Source: a virus. From it: a DNA stretch of 21,378 nt. Positions 7,158-17,125 of this stretch are shown in pieces. Position 1 is the first letter of the stretch; every line of letters begins with the position of its first letter. The position numbers and the translations under genes are program-made. The stretch lies in the IMG/VR virus record IMGVR_UViG_3300031963_010962, positions 1 through 21,378 of that record. The stretch is one strand, 5' to 3'. A model generated the notes under the pieces. The model was not told the DNA's origin. It searched no databases and worked only from the letters and a program-made list of their open reading frames with translations.

Positions 7158-7469
7158 TTATTTCTTGTATCTCATAATTGGCGATTTTTTAAATCGCTCA
7201 ATAGCTTCTTTTGTTTTCATTTCAAAAATAGCTTCTTTAGCCATTTTATTTACTTTTTCTTGCTTTTTCTTGTCGCCATAAAAATCCTCTTTCTCAAGCT
7301 CCTTCATCATCCCAGCCTCTCTTTCTTTTACACTAAGGGGTTTTTCAACTTTGACAACTTTAATACTTGCCTTTATAGCAGGCTTTTTTTTCTTGCCATA
7401 GAAGTCTTCTTTTTCAAGCTCCTTTATCATTCCTGCTTCTCTTTGCTTCGCGGTTAACTGAGGTTTCAT
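7158..7469 (-). CDS. Basic helical protein with an internal tandem repeat, 103 aa
   Basis: Residues 5-29 and 45-69 are near-identical 25-residue units (LTAKQREAGMIKELEKEDFY and LSVKEREAGMMKELEKEDFY, each followed by G and lysines). The 40-residue period includes a linker with Val, Lys and Pro. The DNA of the two units has drifted at third positions while the protein has not, so both units appear to be selected. The rest is Lys-rich and helical. No family is recognised; two copies of a helical, charged unit suggest binding of a symmetric or repeated partner. The ATG overlaps the upstream stop (TAATG). Confidence 0.75.
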   Translation of the reverse strand: MKPQLTAKQREAGMIKELEKEDFYGKKKKPAIKASIKVVKVEKPLSVKEREAGMMKELEKEDFYGDKKKQEKVNKMAKEAIFEMKTKEAIERFKKSPIMRYKK

Positions 7470-8325: not shown

Positions 8326-9771
8326 TTATTTTATTAATTTTTGTACCGAATCTATGGCTTCCAAAACTTTAGCTGTAGAGTATACAGCGCAAGGAGGCAT
8401 TGTTTCGTTGATATAACAAGGCTCACTTTCAACACCTATTTGTTCATGCCAGCAATAGGGTTTGTTACATATTGGGCTACTACTAACGTGATTCGTTAGT
8501 ACCACCTTATTAGATAGCTCTGCGTGTACTATTTCTGGATTGGTATTGCCGAAAAAAAGAATAGACGGAACATTAAATGCTGACGCTACGTGGCTTACTC
8601 CACTATCTATTCCAATAAAGAAGTCAGCACTTCCCACCGCCCAGCACAAAAAGTTCTCGTTCATTGTGTTTAGGTAAATAGCATTTTTAATTAACGGCAC
8701 ATTTCTTTTTCCAACTTGGAATACCGTATATCCTCTTGCTTGAATATTAGCCACAACGCTTTCCCAGTCAACTCCAAATATATTTCTTCCTGATTGTTTT
8801 ATCCCCTCAAGGTGTATTACGCAATATTTTGGAGATAACTTGGTTGCTTCATTTATTTCAAATCCTACGTGCAATTTGGGGTTTCTCATCTCCCCGTCTT
8901 TAATCCCGCAGTATTGATAATAAGTAAGTAATCTATTTTGTTTTGGGAAAGACTCATAGGCCATATCTAAATTATAAAACTCGGCTGTGGCTAAAAGGCT
9001 TTTATTTATTGTTTTGGGATGCTGTACGGGGAAGTAATGGTTTACAAACAGCATATAGAATTGCTCAAGCGTATCAAGCACTACTCGGTATCCCTTTTTA
9101 TAAAAATAATGCAAGATGGGTTCAACAAGTATTACATCACCCATTGATGCTTGTCTTTTTATCACTACCGTTTTTTGATACGGCTTATGGAATCTGCCGT
9201 GAAAACCGAAGGTGTCGTAAATTGGCGGACGAAGCTCATAGGCAAACTTATCGGCGGTTTCTTCATCAGCAAACTTGAAACCGTATCCATTTTCTAAATA
9301 GTATCGGTATAATCTAGCAATAATTTCATCTTCGGGAGATGTTATTTCTATATTCTTATCTGTCGCAATAATGGTTTGTAGCCTAAACGATCTTAAGGAA
9401 AACCCTCCGTTCCCTACATTACGGCCATCTGTATAAAGCCAAGGCGCGCCAATGTAATCGTAATTATAAAAATCATCACTCCACGAATTACCGTTTAGAA
9501 CATAGCCGTCGTGCTGAATTACAAGACAAAACTCCGTATTTATATATTTATAAAGCTCCTTTACAACAAAACGAGAGTATTCTTCTTTGGATTTTATAGG
9601 TAATATTTTTATTACCTGTATTTTATACCCCAAGTCCATATCCCGGTCTGTCAAAAACTTAACAGAAGCAAAGTCGCATTGCTCCATACTTTTTTGTATA
9701 GCAACAAGCGCTTCGCCGTGACGAGAGCAATCAATACAAATTAATGTTACTCTACTTAGCTTTGTTCGCAC
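8326..9771 (-). CDS. Two-domain glycosyltransferase: DUF5672 fused to GT9 (heptosyltransferase-like), 481 aa
   Basis: Residues 6-195 match a DUF5672-type domain: QHDGY (86-90), DYIGAPW (105-111), VGNGGFSLRS (119-128) and FGFHG (188-192). Residues 200-481 match glycosyltransferase family 9 (ADP-heptose:LPS heptosyltransferase type), with RQASMGDVILVEPIL (206-220) and the donor-binding pattern IDSGVSHVASAFNVPSILFFG (388-408). The start is GTG at 9771, overlapping the upstream small gene by 20 bases; internal Met codons lie inside the first domain. Two transferase domains in one chain suggest two successive sugar additions. The heptose genes on the right arm could supply the donor. Confidence 0.85.
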   Translation of the reverse strand: MRTKLSRVTLICIDCSRHGEALVAIQKSMEQCDFASVKFLTDRDMDLGYKIQVIKILPIKSKEEYSRFVVKELYKYINTEFCLVIQHDGYVLNGNSWSDDFYNYDYIGAPWLYTDGRNVGNGGFSLRSFRLQTIIATDKNIEITSPEDEIIARLYRYYLENGYGFKFADEETADKFAYELRPPIYDTFGFHGRFHKPYQKTVVIKRQASMGDVILVEPILHYFYKKGYRVVLDTLEQFYMLFVNHYFPVQHPKTINKSLLATAEFYNLDMAYESFPKQNRLLTYYQYCGIKDGEMRNPKLHVGFEINEATKLSPKYCVIHLEGIKQSGRNIFGVDWESVVANIQARGYTVFQVGKRNVPLIKNAIYLNTMNENFLCWAVGSADFFIGIDSGVSHVASAFNVPSILFFGNTNPEIVHAELSNKVVLTNHVSSSPICNKPYCWHEQIGVESEPCYINETMPPCAVYSTAKVLEAIDSVQKLIK

Positions 9772-12321: not shown

Positions 12322-12501
12322 ATGGAAACGAAAAAAAAGGGACGTAAGCCATTAAAGGAAGGAGATAAAGTAACGCTTGTGTCTGTTTATTTAAAAAAAG
12401 AAGATAAAGAAGCTGTTGTTGCTAAGTACGGATCTGTAACCAATGCAATAAAAGAAGAAGTCTTGCCAAGACTTGATCTCCCTAAAAACGCAAATATATG
12501 A
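12322..12501 (+). CDS. Ribbon-helix-helix-like small protein, 59 aa
   Basis: The ATG at 12322 is chosen over an upstream in-frame start because the family-like sequence begins METKKKGRKPLKEGDKVTLV. A strand (VTLVSVYLKK) followed by two helices (EDKEAVVAKYG, then VTNAIKEEVLPRL) fits the ribbon-helix-helix fold of Arc/CopG-type DNA-binding proteins. It may autoregulate the operon. Its stop overlaps the start of the nucleotidyltransferase gene (ATGA). Confidence 0.65.
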   Translation: METKKKGRKPLKEGDKVTLVSVYLKKEDKEAVVAKYGSVTNAIKEEVLPRLDLPKNANI

Positions 12502-12899
12502 TACGCAAAAAAACGGTTTGGGTTAATGGATGCTTTGATATACTGCATCCGGGACACTTTGAACTTCTTCGTTATGCAGCAACCCTTGGTAACTTGCACG
12601 TAGGCATAGATTCTGACGAAAGAGTAAGAAAAGCAAAAGGCCCCGGCAGACCAATACACGATGAAGGGTTTAGGGCTGATATGCTTTCCGCTTTTTCTTT
12701 TATTAAAAAGGTTTACATCTTTGAAACCGACTGGGATTTACGATCAATTACAAAAAAATTAAAACCCGACTTTTTGGTTATTGGTGATGAGTATAAAGAC
12801 AGAACCATAATTGGAGCAGAAAACGCAAAGAGAATTGTGTTTTTCCCAAAATCATTACACTCTACTACAGAAGTAATAAACAAAATTAAATATGGATAA
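12498..12899 (+). CDS. Heptose-1-phosphate nucleotidyltransferase-like (HldE C-domain/HldC type), 133 aa
   Basis: The HxGH motif is HPGH (17-20) inside GCFDILHPGHFELL. The region VGIDSDERVRKAKGPGRPI (35-53) and STTEVI (122-127) match the cytidylyltransferase superfamily, especially the adenylyltransferase half of bacterial HldE (RfaE domain II). It would join ATP (or CTP) to a sugar phosphate to form a nucleotide sugar. Glycerol-3-phosphate cytidylyltransferase is a close alternative. The neighbouring RfaE-type kinase makes heptose the preferred substrate. Confidence 0.8.
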   Translation: MIRKKTVWVNGCFDILHPGHFELLRYAATLGNLHVGIDSDERVRKAKGPGRPIHDEGFRADMLSAFSFIKKVYIFETDWDLRSITKKLKPDFLVIGDEYKDRTIIGAENAKRIVFFPKSLHSTTEVINKIKYG

Positions 12900-13257
12900 A
12901 AAGCCGATTTGTACCGATTGTTGCCAAGTCCCTAAGGGTTGGGGTGGCGAGATTGTTATAGTAAACAATGATCTTTATTGCGGCAAGATTCTTGTCTTTA
13001 ATAGCGGTTGCCAGTTTAGTATGCACTACCACTTAATTAAGCAAGAAACTTGGTATGTAGTTAAGGGGGAGTTTTTATTTTCTTGGATTGATACAGAAAC
13101 GGGTGACAAGCACATACAAACCTTGTACGAACAAGACGTTGTTACAATTCCTATTGGTATGCCTCATCAACTAAAGGCGCTTCGTGACGGAGAAATATTT
13201 GAGATATCTACACAACATTTTGATTCCGATAGTTACAGAGTATGGAAAGGAGATTAA
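12892..13257 (+). CDS. Cupin-fold protein, 121 aa
   Basis: The first cupin motif is MHYHLIKQETWYVVKG (44-59), with H45, H47 and E52 as metal ligands, and the second is IPIGMPHQL (87-94) with H92. This complete set suggests a metal-binding single-domain cupin like those at the end of mannose-6-phosphate isomerases or in nucleotide-sugar clusters. Context between a nucleotidyltransferase and a sugar kinase suggests a role in sugar isomerisation or epimerisation, not shown by sequence. It overlaps its neighbours. Confidence 0.8.
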   Translation: MDKKPICTDCCQVPKGWGGEIVIVNNDLYCGKILVFNSGCQFSMHYHLIKQETWYVVKGEFLFSWIDTETGDKHIQTLYEQDVVTIPIGMPHQLKALRDGEIFEISTQHFDSDSYRVWKGD

Positions 13258-13445
13258 AATTAAAAGCTAAAGACCTTAGTGTTAGAGACCATATAGCTAT
13301 ACAGGTCTTACCAATTCTTTTAGCAACAGCGACAGATCAAGATTCTCCTGATGAGGTTTGTGATGAAGCTATAAGGATTGCTGACATACTTGAAAAAAAG
13401 TTAAATAGTGAATATATACGTAGACATAGACGGAACGATTTGTGA
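13242..13445 (+). CDS. Hypothetical small protein, 67 aa
   Basis: It starts 16 bases before the end of the cupin gene. The sequence LKLKAKDLSVRDHIAIQVLP, then PDEVCDEAIRIADILEKKL, is helical. Short proteins of this pattern occur widely in Bacteroidota phages as far as I recall, without known function. The 3' end overlaps the start of the HAD gene by 38 bases, an unusually long overlap that supports a compact operon but also lowers confidence in its exact end use. Confidence 0.65.
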   Translation: MERRLKLKAKDLSVRDHIAIQVLPILLATATDQDSPDEVCDEAIRIADILEKKLNSEYIRRHRRNDL

Positions 13446-13698
13446 TAGTGTTGGGGGAAGATATGATGAAGCGTCGCCAATCCCCCAGCACATAGACAAA
13501 ATAAACGCTCTTTATGAAGAGGGAAATAGAATTACTTATTATACGGCAAGAGGACAGAACTCTGGAAAAGATTATTCTGATTTAACATATAACCAACTTA
13601 TAGGATGGGGTTGTAAATTTCACGACTTAATAATGAACCATAAACCAGCATACGACCTAATGATATGCGATAAAACCAAGAGGATTGAAGAGTTATGA
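13408..13698 (+). CDS. Short HAD-superfamily phosphatase, 96 aa
   Basis: The start is GTG at 13408; no ATG is suitable since the catalytic motif DIDGTIC (residues 6-12, nucleophile D6, second Asp D8) comes immediately. Motif II is YYTARG (Thr46 region). The C-terminus has DLMICDKTK. It lacks a cap domain and is much shorter than GmhB (about 190 aa). In the heptose pathway a HAD phosphatase (GmhB) removes the 7-phosphate from heptose-1,7-bisphosphate. Its position between kinase and nucleotidyltransferase makes it a candidate for that step, though short phage HADs can have other substrates. Confidence 0.75.
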   Translation: MNIYVDIDGTICDSVGGRYDEASPIPQHIDKINALYEEGNRITYYTARGQNSGKDYSDLTYNQLIGWGCKFHDLIMNHKPAYDLMICDKTKRIEEL

Positions 13699-14444
13699 AC
13701 TTTTTAGTTATAGGGGAAAAATGTAGAGATGTTTTTGTGTATGGGGAAGTCACAAGGCTTAGCCCAGAAGCACCCGTTCCTATATTTAAACCAAACCGAA
13801 TTACAGAAAATGGCGGTATGGCGCAAAATGTTTACAATAATCTTTTTTCATTAATAGAAAAAAAGTCAAGCATCATAGGTCATTTTTGCCACGAAGAAAT
13901 AAGGAAGACAAGATATGTTGATGATAAATCAAATCATTATTTCATACGAATTGACGAAAACGATACATCACGACCAATAGAGTTTACTTCTCATTTTAAA
14001 AAAATTATATACGGCGCCGATTGTATTATAATTTCAGATTATGATAAAGGTTATTTATCGCTAAACGATATTTATCAAATTTGCCAAGAAAAAAGAGATG
14101 GCGCTATTGTTTTTTTAGATACTAAGAAAAAGCTTACCCCTGTAATATTTGATCAGATTGATTTTGTTAAATTCAATGAGTCGGAGTACGAAAAAAATAA
14201 AATGTTCGCAGAAGGGTATCTTGATAAAATTATTATTACAAAGGGTGGTAATGGAGCTACTCACAACAACCAAGACTTCCCCAGCACAAAAAAAGTAACC
14301 ATAGATGTAAGTGGTGCAGGAGATACATTCTTAGCCGTATTAGCCTATTATTATATGCAAAGAAGGTCAATAAACTTTGCTATAGAAAAAGCTAATGAAG
14401 CGGCCTCAAAAGTGGTGTCAGAAAGAGGGGTTTCTGTTATCTAA
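13695..14444 (+). CDS. PfkB-family kinase like HldA/RfaE domain I (heptose-7-phosphate kinase), 249 aa
   Basis: RLSPEAPVPIF (21-31) is the signature of RfaE-type D-glycero-beta-D-manno-heptose-7-phosphate kinases. GGMAQNVYNNL (40-50) corresponds to the usual GGAANVAxNL and DVSGAGDTF (204-212) is the PfkB active-site motif with the catalytic Asp. ITKGGNGA (181-188) fits the nucleotide-binding region. Bacterial HldA domains are about 310-330 aa; about 30 residues after NNL are missing here, so the enzyme is compact. It would make heptose-1,7-bisphosphate from heptose-7-phosphate. Its start overlaps the HAD stop (ATGA). Confidence 0.85.
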   Translation: MNFLVIGEKCRDVFVYGEVTRLSPEAPVPIFKPNRITENGGMAQNVYNNLFSLIEKKSSIIGHFCHEEIRKTRYVDDKSNHYFIRIDENDTSRPIEFTSHFKKIIYGADCIIISDYDKGYLSLNDIYQICQEKRDGAIVFLDTKKKLTPVIFDQIDFVKFNESEYEKNKMFAEGYLDKIIITKGGNGATHNNQDFPSTKKVTIDVSGAGDTFLAVLAYYYMQRRSINFAIEKANEAASKVVSERGVSVI

Positions 14445-14454
14445 AAATTTTTTT

Positions 14455-14486
14455 TTGGAAGTTTGGGAAGTTGTGGTGTATATTCG
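14455..14486 (+). promoter_or_regulatory. Possible promoter TTG-N21-TATATTCG upstream of the replication genes
   Basis: TTG at 14455-14457, 21 bases, then TATATTCG (14479-14486), one base from TAnnTTTG. A start 5 bases downstream would be at 14491, the first base of the RNA helix described next. A copy of the CTTCCC motif (reverse orientation, 14465-14470) lies between the two elements and might bind a regulator. Confidence 0.45.
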
Positions 14487-14490
14487 TTTC

Positions 14491-14604
14491 GCTAAACTAG
14501 GTTTCGATGTTATTAACTCAATTAACATATTTCAAAATACTGGCTTGTCCCGTAACGTACCTTCTCTTCATCGAGCTTGGTTTAGCAGCGTTATGGGCAA
14601 GCCA
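14491..14604 (+). ncRNA. Structured leader RNA with two interleaved long helices (candidate pseudoknot)
   Basis: Helix A pairs 14491-14509 (GCTAAACTAGGTTTCGATG) with 14569-14586: 18 pairs including three wobbles and one bulged T. Helix B pairs 14541-14557 (TGGCTTGTCCCGTAACG) with 14589-14604: 16 pairs, one wobble and one bulged T. The order A5', B5', A3', B3' means the helices cross, giving an H-type pseudoknot with loops of 31, 11 and 2 bases. No credible protein is coded here. It ends 22 bases before the initiator ATG, so it is probably a regulatory leader. I do not recognise it as a known riboswitch. Confidence 0.55.
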
Positions 14605-14626
14605 ACCTTATTAAATTCTAAATAAA

Positions 14627-15208
14627 ATGGCTAAAGATCCAGCATTTTTATTCTATCCCGGCGACTGGCTTGGAGGCACAATTGGGATGACTTTTGAGGA
14701 AAAAGGGGCTTATATGGACGTACTAATTCTTCAATTTAATAGAGGTCATATGACCGAAGATATGATTGCCCATATGTTAGGTCAATCGTTTGGTCGGATT
14801 TGGGTTAAAATTAAGGATAAATTTCAGGTTGATGAAAATGGAATGTACTTTAATGCCAGACTTAACGAGGAAAAAGAGAAGCGTAAGTCGTTCATACAGA
14901 GTCGCGTAAACAATAAAACAGGCAAAAATCAATACTCAAAAAAAGAAGCTCATATGAGAGGTCACTTGACCTCACATATGGAAAATGAAAATGAAAATGA
15001 AAATATAAATGGAATTAGAAATTCTTTGAAAAGGGGGTATGGGGGAAAAACTTTGAAAAAAGGTGCAAACTTTTGCGATTTGGATTTAGGTCGGGCATAC
15101 TTCACCGAAGACGGCACGGTTTGGCAGGAATTGGGTGAAGAGCAGAAAAAACTTTTAGCCGAAAGAAAAATTAATTACTACGAAATTTATCAAGGGGAAA
15201 TTTTTTAA
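14627..15208 (+). CDS. DUF1376 replication-initiator-like protein, 193 aa
   Basis: The N-terminal 90 residues match the DUF1376 family: AFLFYPGDWLGGTIGMTFEE (6-25), KGAYMDVLILQFNRG and VDENGMYFNARLNEEKEKR. Such proteins in phages are winged-helix replication initiators like lambda O or DnaD-like proteins. The middle contains a palindrome-encoded segment (HMRGHLTSHM) and an ENENENEN repeat, an unusual linker whose DNA looks like a replication origin. The C-terminal part is mostly helical (WQELGEEQKKLLAERK). It directly precedes the primase-helicase, supporting a role in loading it on DNA. Confidence 0.8.
   Translation: MAKDPAFLFYPGDWLGGTIGMTFEEKGAYMDVLILQFNRGHMTEDMIAHMLGQSFGRIWVKIKDKFQVDENGMYFNARLNEEKEKRKSFIQSRVNNKTGKNQYSKKEAHMRGHLTSHMENENENENINGIRNSLKRGYGGKTLKKGANFCDLDLGRAYFTEDGTVWQELGEEQKKLLAERKINYYEIYQGEIF
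14741..15010. other. Candidate replication origin inside the initiator gene (iterons, palindrome, AT-rich repeat)
   Basis: The unit CATATGNNAGGTCA occurs at 14771-14784 (plus), 14951-14964 (plus) and 14967-14980 (minus). The last two form a 30-bp palindrome whose 14-base arms match at 13 positions around a CT centre. A 12-bp perfect palindrome GGTCATATGACC lies at 14744-14755. Immediately after the 30-bp palindrome come four exact GAAAAT repeats (14981-15004) and AT-rich DNA. The layout copies lambda ori, where iterons and an AT-rich unwinding region lie within gene O. Confidence 0.55.
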
Positions 15209-15217
15209 AAAACAAAA

Positions 15218-17125
15218 ATGTACTACGACCAGCTTACTAAACTCGGAATCAGGCTTCGCAAGAGAAGCGGCCAAGAAAAAACAACCTGCCCACAATGCTC
15301 AGAGGGCAGAAGAAAAAAAACAGATCCCTGTCTTTCGGTTAGTATTTCTCAGGGCGACTACAACTGTCACAACTGCGGATGGAAGGGGAATGTTAGGGCT
15401 TTTGTGGTTAAGGAAAGTTTGAAAAAATTTGAAAAACCAAGTCAGGATATGCTCAAAAATATTGAGCTAAATGACAGAGTAAAAAAGTATTTTGAAGGTC
15501 GGGGAATAAGTGAGGCTACATTGAAAAAATTCTTTATTCACGGCAAAGAAGAGTGGATGCCGCAAACCCAGAAAAAAGAGCGCTGTATCGTGTTCCCCTA
15601 CATTCGTAATAGCGAAATCGTAAATGCAAAATATCGCGATGGGAAAAAGAATTTTCGCTTGGTAAAAGATGCTGAATTGATTTTTTTCGGGATGCAAACT
15701 TTAGAAGGAAGACGTTGCGCAATTATCGTGGAAGGTGAGATTGATGCTCTTTCCGCATACGAAGCTGGTTTTGGGAAAAACTACGAGCCTGCTTGCAATG
15801 CGGATGGTGAGGTGGTGGAACACGAACTTGGAAGATTTGCTGTTATTTCGGTTCCAAATGGGGCAAGCGCAGGAAGCCAGCGATTGGAGTATCTGGACAA
15901 CAGCGCAGAGTATTTAAGCACTATTGAAGAATTCGTGATAGCGACCGATAACGACGCCCCCGGTCAGGCACTTCGGGACGAGCTGATTCGCCGACTTGGG
16001 GTTGAAAAATGCCGAACGGTGAGGTGGGAAATCTTAAAATCGCACCAGACGCACGGAAACGGCCCAAATTTCGCGCCAAAAGATTTTAATGAGGTGTTAG
16101 TCCATTTTGGAAAGGAGGCCTTAAAATCGCTCGTATTGAGTTCTCAAGAAATTCCGGTTGAAGGCATTTTTTATGTTGAGGATATTTTTTCTTCAATGTT
16201 GGACAATTTTAAACGAGGTGTTCAAGTTGCCCCGCCGACTAATTTTGGAGAAATGGATGAGTATTTTAGATGGAAAAAAGGTGATATAAATCTATGTACT
16301 GGATATGCTAACGCGGGTAAGTCAACCTTTATGCTTCAACTAATGCTTACTAAAAGCATTTGGGATGGTTGGAAGTGGGCAATATTTAGTCCAGAGAATT
16401 ATCCCGCAAATGATTTTTATGATGACTTAGTTGAAATGTATTTAGGTAAGTGGACTTCAAATATGACAGAAGAAGAATATACGGAGGCTTGTAAATTTAT
16501 AGGAGAGCATATATTTTTTGTCTATCCAGAAAACGAACACGATATTGAATCGGTGCACGAAAAGTTTAGATACTTAATTTTAAAAAAAGGATTAGACGGT
16601 GTAATGATTGATCCATTCAATCAACTTGATTCGATGCAAAGGTCTTATCAAAGAGAAGACCAATACTTATCAAGTGTATTAAAGGATATAAAAAGATTTG
16701 CGCTACTTAATGGAATTTGTTATAATATAATTGCTCATCCTAAAAGCCCAACCTATAGAGAAGACAAGTCGCTGCCTATTGCCGATATGTATGATCTTGC
16801 TGGTGGCGCTATGTGGGGTAATAAGGTTGATCAAATTATATCATACTATAGACCAAGGTTTCACGAAGATAAAAACAGTAAAGAGGTTGAGGTGTATATT
16901 CAAAAGGTTAAAAGAAAAAGAACGGGAGGACAGCTAGGGCACTTTGGGATTTATTTAGATTGGAGAACAAAAAGATATTGTCATCCCGTTAGTGGTCAGT
17001 TTTATTGTGATATGAAAATTGCTCGCAAGGCCACGTCTTCCCACAACCCAGAAAACATAACACAAGGAGAAATATCAAAGCAATGGCTACCATACAAGGA
17101 TGGAGATACTGAAGCGCCTTTTTAA
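15218..17125 (+). CDS. Bifunctional DNA primase-helicase, 635 aa
   Basis: The N-terminal zinc-binding domain has C24, C27, C50 and C53 (CPQC and CHNCGW). The TOPRIM primase core has VEGEIDALSAYEAG (171-184, catalytic Glu) and TDNDAPG (243-249, DxD). The C-terminal RecA-like helicase has Walker A GYANAGKST (362-370) and Walker B GVMIDPFNQL (461-470), followed by NIIAHPKSP. This domain order is that of phage T7 gp4 and mitochondrial Twinkle: one protein unwinds DNA and makes RNA primers. The primase half appears richer in G and C than the helicase half. It follows the initiator gene by nine bases. Confidence 0.92.
   Translation: MYYDQLTKLGIRLRKRSGQEKTTCPQCSEGRRKKTDPCLSVSISQGDYNCHNCGWKGNVRAFVVKESLKKFEKPSQDMLKNIELNDRVKKYFEGRGISEATLKKFFIHGKEEWMPQTQKKERCIVFPYIRNSEIVNAKYRDGKKNFRLVKDAELIFFGMQTLEGRRCAIIVEGEIDALSAYEAGFGKNYEPACNADGEVVEHELGRFAVISVPNGASAGSQRLEYLDNSAEYLSTIEEFVIATDNDAPGQALRDELIRRLGVEKCRTVRWEILKSHQTHGNGPNFAPKDFNEVLVHFGKEALKSLVLSSQEIPVEGIFYVEDIFSSMLDNFKRGVQVAPPTNFGEMDEYFRWKKGDINLCTGYANAGKSTFMLQLMLTKSIWDGWKWAIFSPENYPANDFYDDLVEMYLGKWTSNMTEEEYTEACKFIGEHIFFVYPENEHDIESVHEKFRYLILKKGLDGVMIDPFNQLDSMQRSYQREDQYLSSVLKDIKRFALLNGICYNIIAHPKSPTYREDKSLPIADMYDLAGGAMWGNKVDQIISYYRPRFHEDKNSKEVEVYIQKVKRKRTGGQLGHFGIYLDWRTKRYCHPVSGQFYCDMKIARKATSSHNPENITQGEISKQWLPYKDGDTEAPF

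Follow-up and report, generated by a model that had tools for sequence, protein, structure and literature searches.

Interleaved RNA helices as a candidate regulatory leader of replication operons in Bacteroidota phages

The window analyzed here, the whole 21,378-nucleotide stretch of the IMG/VR virus record IMGVR_UViG_3300031963_010962, contains a gap at 14445-14626 between the stop codon of a PfkB-type kinase gene and the start of the first gene of a replication operon (Table 1). The product of this gene, a presumed replication initiator or replisome organizer, scores 27.1 bits against Pfam DUF1376, just below the cut-off of 30.1 bits, and a primase-helicase gene follows; this position supports the original prediction that the RNA encoded in the gap is the leader of the replication initiator. 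A 76-amino-acid ORF at 14395-14625 has no Pfam match, and a coding origin of the repeat arms described below was ruled out, as indels of 1-3 nt occur inside this ORF among relatives. A 19-base identity, TAAATAAAATGGCTAAAGA, links positions 14619-14637 (+), spanning the DUF1376 start codon, with 7234-7252 (-), inside a minus-strand gene. Farther upstream, positions 12498-14444 and 8326-9771 encode three consecutive proteins, a cytidylyltransferase-like protein (VWVNGCFDILHPGHFELL), a cupin, and the PfkB-type kinase, together with a glycosyltransferase that resembles a heptosyltransferase in its C-terminal half. By eye, the whole set resembles a split HldE-like sugar activation pathway, the Pfam check having covered the kinase alone, and its gene order is shared with the related phages L171 and L180.

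Table 1. Features of the leader and the first replication genes in the window
Feature	Position	Strand	Basis and remarks
Promoter, Bacteroidota-type -7 element TATATTCG	14479..14486	+	One mismatch to TAnnTTTG
Helix A, 5' arm (A5')	14491..14509	+	Helix finder; bulged U at 14504; 14491 is the predicted +1
Loop 1, AU-rich	14510..14540	+	Sequence, MFE fold; possible small hairpin ATGTTA/TAACAT; A-rich end before B5'
Helix B, 5' arm (B5')	14541..14558	+	Helix finder; bulged U at 14548
Loop 2	14559..14568	+	Helix finder
Helix A, 3' arm (A3')	14569..14586	+	Helix finder; inside the loop of hairpin B
Helix B, 3' arm (B3')	14588..14604	+	Helix finder; followed by weak U-tract ACCTTATT
AU-rich linker, RNA element to start codon	14605..14626	+	Without a second promoter
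First replication-operon gene: DUF1376 protein, presumed replication initiator/replisome organizer	14627..15208	+	Pfam
Primase-helicase (Toprim + DnaB_C)	15218..17125	+	Pfam

The flavobacterial sigma-A box TAnnTTTG sits at -12 to -5 (PMC9723704), and the spacing of the corresponding element in the window therefore places the predicted transcription start at the first base of helix A, in keeping with the original prediction of a promoter-like element with this start. Two inverted repeats follow in the order A5'-B5'-A3'-B3', with a single base (14587) separating A3' from B3', so that the arms are interleaved. Helix A consists of 18 pairs, including three G-U pairs, and helix B of 17 pairs, including a closing U-G, each interrupted by one bulged U. 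Our helix finder permitted two interruptions and took its score from the weaker of the two interleaved helices, and this score was 36.3 in the window compared to 18.0 +/- 1.8, with a maximum of 27.8, in 1000 dinucleotide shuffles. Hairpin B alone, which is GC-rich and ends 22 nt 5' of the start codon, has an MFE of -33.9 kcal/mol (z -4.4). The helix finder and the shuffles thus bear out the description of two alternating repeats, each with a single bulge and wobble pairs, that can form together only as a pseudoknot; of the lengths originally given, the 18 bp of helix A stands, while the 16 bp of helix B becomes 17 pairs when the closing G-U is counted. In most relatives, an equivalent promoter element lies 3-10 nt 5' of the first helix. 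Pairing from the first transcribed base, as predicted for the window family, would suit a 5' stabilizer or insulator that shields the operon mRNA from 5'-end-dependent decay while helix B stops upstream read-in. We consider such a role improbable, as simple hairpins would be sufficient for it, the placement of a 3' arm inside the loop of B would be left unexplained, and the first helix begins 5-13 nt inside the transcript in several members.

Close relatives of the window provide a direct view of how the arms evolve. L001 and L190 encode relatives of the window proteins (71% identical for DUF1376 and 89% for the primase-helicase), while L171 and L180 keep the gene order of the window 5' of the element and have the B arm in common with it. 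A pattern search with the B arm returned 19 matches, four of them real (L168, L170, L171, and L180) and the others due to chance. In five sequences, the window and four close relatives, 92 of 92 cells of helix A are paired, and 12 of the 19 positions have changed on both sides, always with pairing retained, as can be seen from GCTAAACTAGGTTTCGATG/CATCGAGCTTGGTTTAGC in the window and GCTTAATTCAGATTTAATG/CATTGAGTCTGGATTAAGC in L001; these counts, and those for helix B, come from arms aligned by hand according to structure, because MAFFT places gaps wrongly in the 3' arm of helix A, and the alignment is accordingly biased towards pairing. For helix B, where L193-L195 and L201 bring the set to nine sequences, 138 of 142 cells are paired with 6 positions changed on both sides, and the bulged U of B5' is present in all nine. 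The retention of pairing in helix A through changes on both sides argues that the RNA is under selection, and judged from these comparisons, the element in the window is an RNA pseudoknot selected for pairing. It was originally suggested that the arms are selected for RNA pairing, and arms that change without compensation were named as the refuting case; the relatives show the opposite outcome, with compensated changes in the window family, in the kissing type described below, and in the lillamy9-1 group. The existence of two inverted repeats could also reflect an operator or recombination site that acts at the DNA level with no RNA function. This explanation is largely refuted and retains hardly any probability, as the G-U pairs, the interleaved order, the compensatory changes, and the start exactly at the predicted +1 all indicate RNA.

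Beyond these close relatives, unrelated sequences with one common architecture are found 5' of replication operons in many Bacteroidota phages. This architecture comprises a TAnnTTTG promoter, an A5' arm within ~40 nt, a GC-rich hairpin with A3' in its loop, usually a U-tract, and then the start codon. Cultured members include JQ, lillamy9-1, 11b, phi19:1, FCL-2, P2559S, P12002S, and Nekkels_1. In many members, a small 5' hairpin carries A5' in its loop, so that two hairpins kiss (JQ, 11b, lillamy9-1, phi19:1, FCL-2, P2559S, the L046 group, L105, L148, L020, L009, L006, and L034), and the window family has the long helix A in place of this 5' stem. Among 22 related phages of the kissing type (20 distinct), 99.6% of cells are paired, compared to 30-43% in shifted-register controls, and the 7-bp loop-loop helix is paired throughout (100%), with two exchanges on both sides (C-G to G-C and G-C to A-U). 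The loop pairs of lillamy9-1, mumin9-1, morran9-1, and snusmum9-1 are GTGAGACG/CGTCTCAC, GTGGAACG/CGTTCCAC, and GTGAGAAG/CTTCTCAC, and all 24 pairs of the structure are kept in this group (100%) through 5 both-sides changes, 3 of them in the loop-loop helix. The view of the element as a single oddity is, on this comparative evidence, too narrow, and the element of the window is one version of a shared architecture. Whole-genome scans of phi12:1 and the Bacteroides phage B124-14 found no element, and in Firmicutes phages with related initiators there is no space for one. Two of the cultured members have peculiarities of their own. Nekkels_1 (L292) has, at 2470-2620, perhaps two pairings into the terminator loop (ATTGGAA/TTCCAAT and, by eye, GTCTAAC/GTTAGAC). 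In P2559S (L286), the annotated start of gp48 at 33955 lies inside the RNA element, and from the sequence an ATG ~45 nt downstream, past the U-tract, is the likelier start.

The association of this architecture with replication loci was evaluated in several ways. A pseudoknot score without constraints over-extended the helices and recovered few members, and promoter-anchored and kissing descriptors took its place. In the anchored test, which covered 57 replication loci with three controls (control strands and regions), an architecture score of at least 46 was reached by 18 of the 195 promoter-like sites that lie upstream and on the coding strand, compared to 7 of 536 controls (Fisher p 2e-6, an indicative value only, as the descriptors were designed after several members had been seen); at a score of at least 50, there were 12 upstream coding-strand sites and 2 in the controls. 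Whole-genome scans covered a small set of 10 genomes, including B124-14. For the window and eight cultured phages, the kissing descriptor gave 8 sites with a score of at least 46, where a shuffled set gave 0.4; with a single exception, these 8 sites fall at replication leaders, JQ being counted twice. By the kissing descriptor, the leader ranks first in its genome in JQ, lillamy9-1, 11b, phi19:1, FCL-2, and P2559S, and by the general descriptor it does so in the window and P12002S, so that the replication leader is the top or second site genome-wide in most cultured flavobacterial phages; P12002S, 11b, FCL-2, and P2559S had not been seen before the genome scan. Across 25 leaders, the pairing energy between 5' and 3' regions is -21.2 kcal/mol for native combinations, compared to -12.6 kcal/mol when swapped, while P12002S, L148, and a few other short leaders are individually no better than their swaps.

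The genes behind the element change, while the RNA stays. The replication protein encoded behind it belongs to DUF1376 in the window, Lin1244_N in L171, DUF6291 in lillamy9-1 and 11b, HTH_36 in P2559S and P12002S, and Phg_2220_C in FCL-2, and in mumin9-1, a helicase and a primase replace the initiator, although the RNA is ~91% identical. The same element again precedes initiators of the L171 kind in L193, L194, L195, L201, and L204, and in L079, L109, and L050, it lies 5' of a small gene that precedes DUF1376. As these initiator families are unrelated, the element is linked to the replication operon and not to one protein. This constant association with replication modules, whichever initiator they encode, would also be expected of a replication-origin part, in which the transcript would serve to prime or open the origin, its fold shaping the RNA-DNA hybrid. 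This seems highly improbable, given that the GC skew of the window turns near 11 kb, where gene orientation switches, compared to 14.5 kb for the element, and that no iterons were found in the gap. The initiators of L171 (4612-5199) and the window (14627-15208) differ by a swap of the N-terminal domain, Lin1244_N for DUF1376, in these syntenic phages, and the L171 protein keeps the C-terminal tail F.DL.LGRAYFT.DGTV.QELG.EQKKLLAE of the window.

For the function of the element, the region between helix B and the start codon is informative. In about two thirds of 30 leaders, 7-9 of the 10 nt that follow B3' are T, and this U-tract is present also in JQ, lillamy9-1, L003, and L017, where the ATG is 27-50 nt away, implying that the U-tract belongs to the hairpin and not to the start codon. 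The distance from element to start codon is mostly 8-50 nt among the 30 leaders, and 28 of them have no second promoter before the gene. The exceptions are L171 and L180, in which a promoter-like TAAATTTG lies past B3' and ahead of the ATG, so that RNA and gene are separated; this sequence would permit a leaderless mRNA. The position of a terminator-like hairpin, past the only visible promoter and ahead of the gene, points to read-through that is partial and regulated, and we tentatively favor, at somewhat less than even confidence, a cis-acting leader in which a pseudoknotted or kissing intrinsic terminator would attenuate transcription from this promoter into the replication operon.

Under this attenuator model, transcription would start at 14491, as promoter geometry suggests, and the 5' end of the RNA, A5', pairs with A3' in the loop of hairpin B, a pairing that the compensatory changes support. 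As the polymerase reaches A3' earlier than B3', the A5'-A3' pairing would come first, with the later closing of B producing the pseudoknot, and this prior pairing may alter whether or how fast the terminator closes. The state of closure would in turn set the read-through of RNA polymerase into the replication genes. The clasp might block or delay termination, as helices of 17-18 bp would need threading with the polymerase still holding the 3' end, or it might instead aid closure by bringing together the arms of the 30-nt loop. Helices A and B share no bases, and the element is therefore not a classical, mutually exclusive attenuator. Against the attenuator model, the window and its closest relatives have a weak U-tract with 4 T in 10, a scan for short-loop terminators found none, and L109 and L050 are without a U-tract. 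The weak U-tract and the lack of a short-loop terminator make a translational or mRNA-protective role possible in the window subfamily. The leaders contain no conserved ligand-like core that could point to the switching signal.

Two further explanations bear on the same region. A translational operator like that of T4 gene 32, in which the pseudoknot nucleates the initiator or a single-strand binding protein that covers the AU-rich start and represses translation, matches the anatomy of the T4/RB69 operator, with a pseudoknot 5' of an unstructured AU-rich start (PMC535899), and the AU-rich linker and weak U-tract of the window would fit it as well. It is nonetheless quite unlikely, as the architecture is constant while the downstream protein family changes, U-tracts track the hairpin even with a distant start codon, and there is no conserved sequence for a specific protein. 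Alternatively, the element may be a stand-alone small RNA of ~115 nt, with its 5' end in helix A and its 3' end in terminator B, that is stable and acts in trans on the phage or the host. The promoter, the compact fold, and the terminator-like 3' end of most members are consistent with this, as are the ~91% identity of the mumin9-1 RNA despite its replaced genes and the retention of the RNA in L171 and L180 despite the replaced initiator domain. We regard a small RNA as fairly unlikely, since sequence drift is free in all parts of the element, with no conserved unpaired stretch, and a free RNA would need neither a location nearly always 8-50 nt 5' of a start codon nor the lack of a second promoter.

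Returning to the attenuator model, the original proposal that gene copy number or replication timing may be controlled by the RNA is plausible, and the element probably sets the amount of replication-operon transcription. A bolder and rather doubtful generalization is that flavobacterial phages share, almost universally, a hitherto undescribed RNA switch of the 'clasped terminator' kind. In it, the loop of an intrinsic terminator would be paired to the 5' end of the nascent RNA, and topology, not competing pairs, would gate the replication operon, with free drift in sequence and any initiator behind it. If this mechanism were true, the RNA would gate transcription by loop pairing and topology and not by mutually exclusive stems. 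To our knowledge, next to nothing is known about the control of replication-gene expression in Bacteroidota phages. Since the element marks where the replication operon begins in phages with unrelated initiators, it provides a handle on the switch from early functions to replication, and it is testable in the cultured phages FCL-2, lillamy9-1, 11b, phi19:1, and JQ.

According to the original prediction, moreover, no RNA of this form is known to have been described, and our searches agree with it. With Rfam 15 at the gathering threshold, there was no match in the window, 14 relatives, or five of six cultured phage genomes, and the Rfam family LOOT scored weakly (15.4 of 46.4 bits). A nucleotide search with the window leader found no match among named phages, and none of the papers searched describes the element or reports RNA-seq of a cultured phage. 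Lack of sequence conservation is the reason why family searches missed the element. The sole Rfam match, DUF805b (52 bits), lies outside the element, in the gap before a ParB-like gene of lillamy9-1 (L282, 12781-12815).

Several known systems nevertheless resemble the element in part. The processive antitermination RNAs HK022 put and Bacillus EAR are cis-acting RNAs early in a phage genome or long operon that alter RNA polymerase, and their sequences are conserved, unlike the phage leaders, in which structure alone is kept. The pseudoknot of IncI-alpha plasmids is a short loop pairing. As cited in PMC10724649, a leader pseudoknot controls initiator synthesis for repZ/repA of the IncI-alpha and IncL/M plasmids (ColIb-P9). 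The phage element likewise has a pseudoknot upstream of the initiator start, but the IncI-alpha switch is a translational plasmid system whose pseudoknot is under the control of leader-peptide translation and an antisense RNA, whereas the element belongs to phages, its helices reach 17-18 bp, and it has a terminator-like hairpin. The gene 32 operator of T4 and RB69 is closer in context, as it serves a phage replication gene and places a 5' pseudoknot before an unstructured AU-rich start region (PMC535899). That pseudoknot, of ~28 nt, is recognized by gp32, while the element is much larger and unconserved in sequence, mostly has a terminator-like hairpin, and precedes changing proteins, DUF1376 or another initiator type and not a single-strand binding protein. 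In the repC leader of the S. aureus plasmid pT181, an intrinsic terminator lies between the promoter and the initiator gene, and a 5' hairpin influences this terminator (PMC4878617). Most members of our class have the same succession of promoter, leader with intrinsic terminator, and initiator gene, with the reservation that the U-tract of the window is weak. However, pT181 switches via an antisense RNA and antiterminator pairing with the 5' half of the terminator stem, whereas A5' pairs with the loop of B and not its stem, and the two helices share no base. Among 25 leaders searched for promoters of the TAnnTTTG type, none is conserved on the opposite strand. As a defining feature is missing for pT181 and gene 32, the element is filed under none of these three systems, pT181, IncI-alpha, and gene 32, and shares some features of each.
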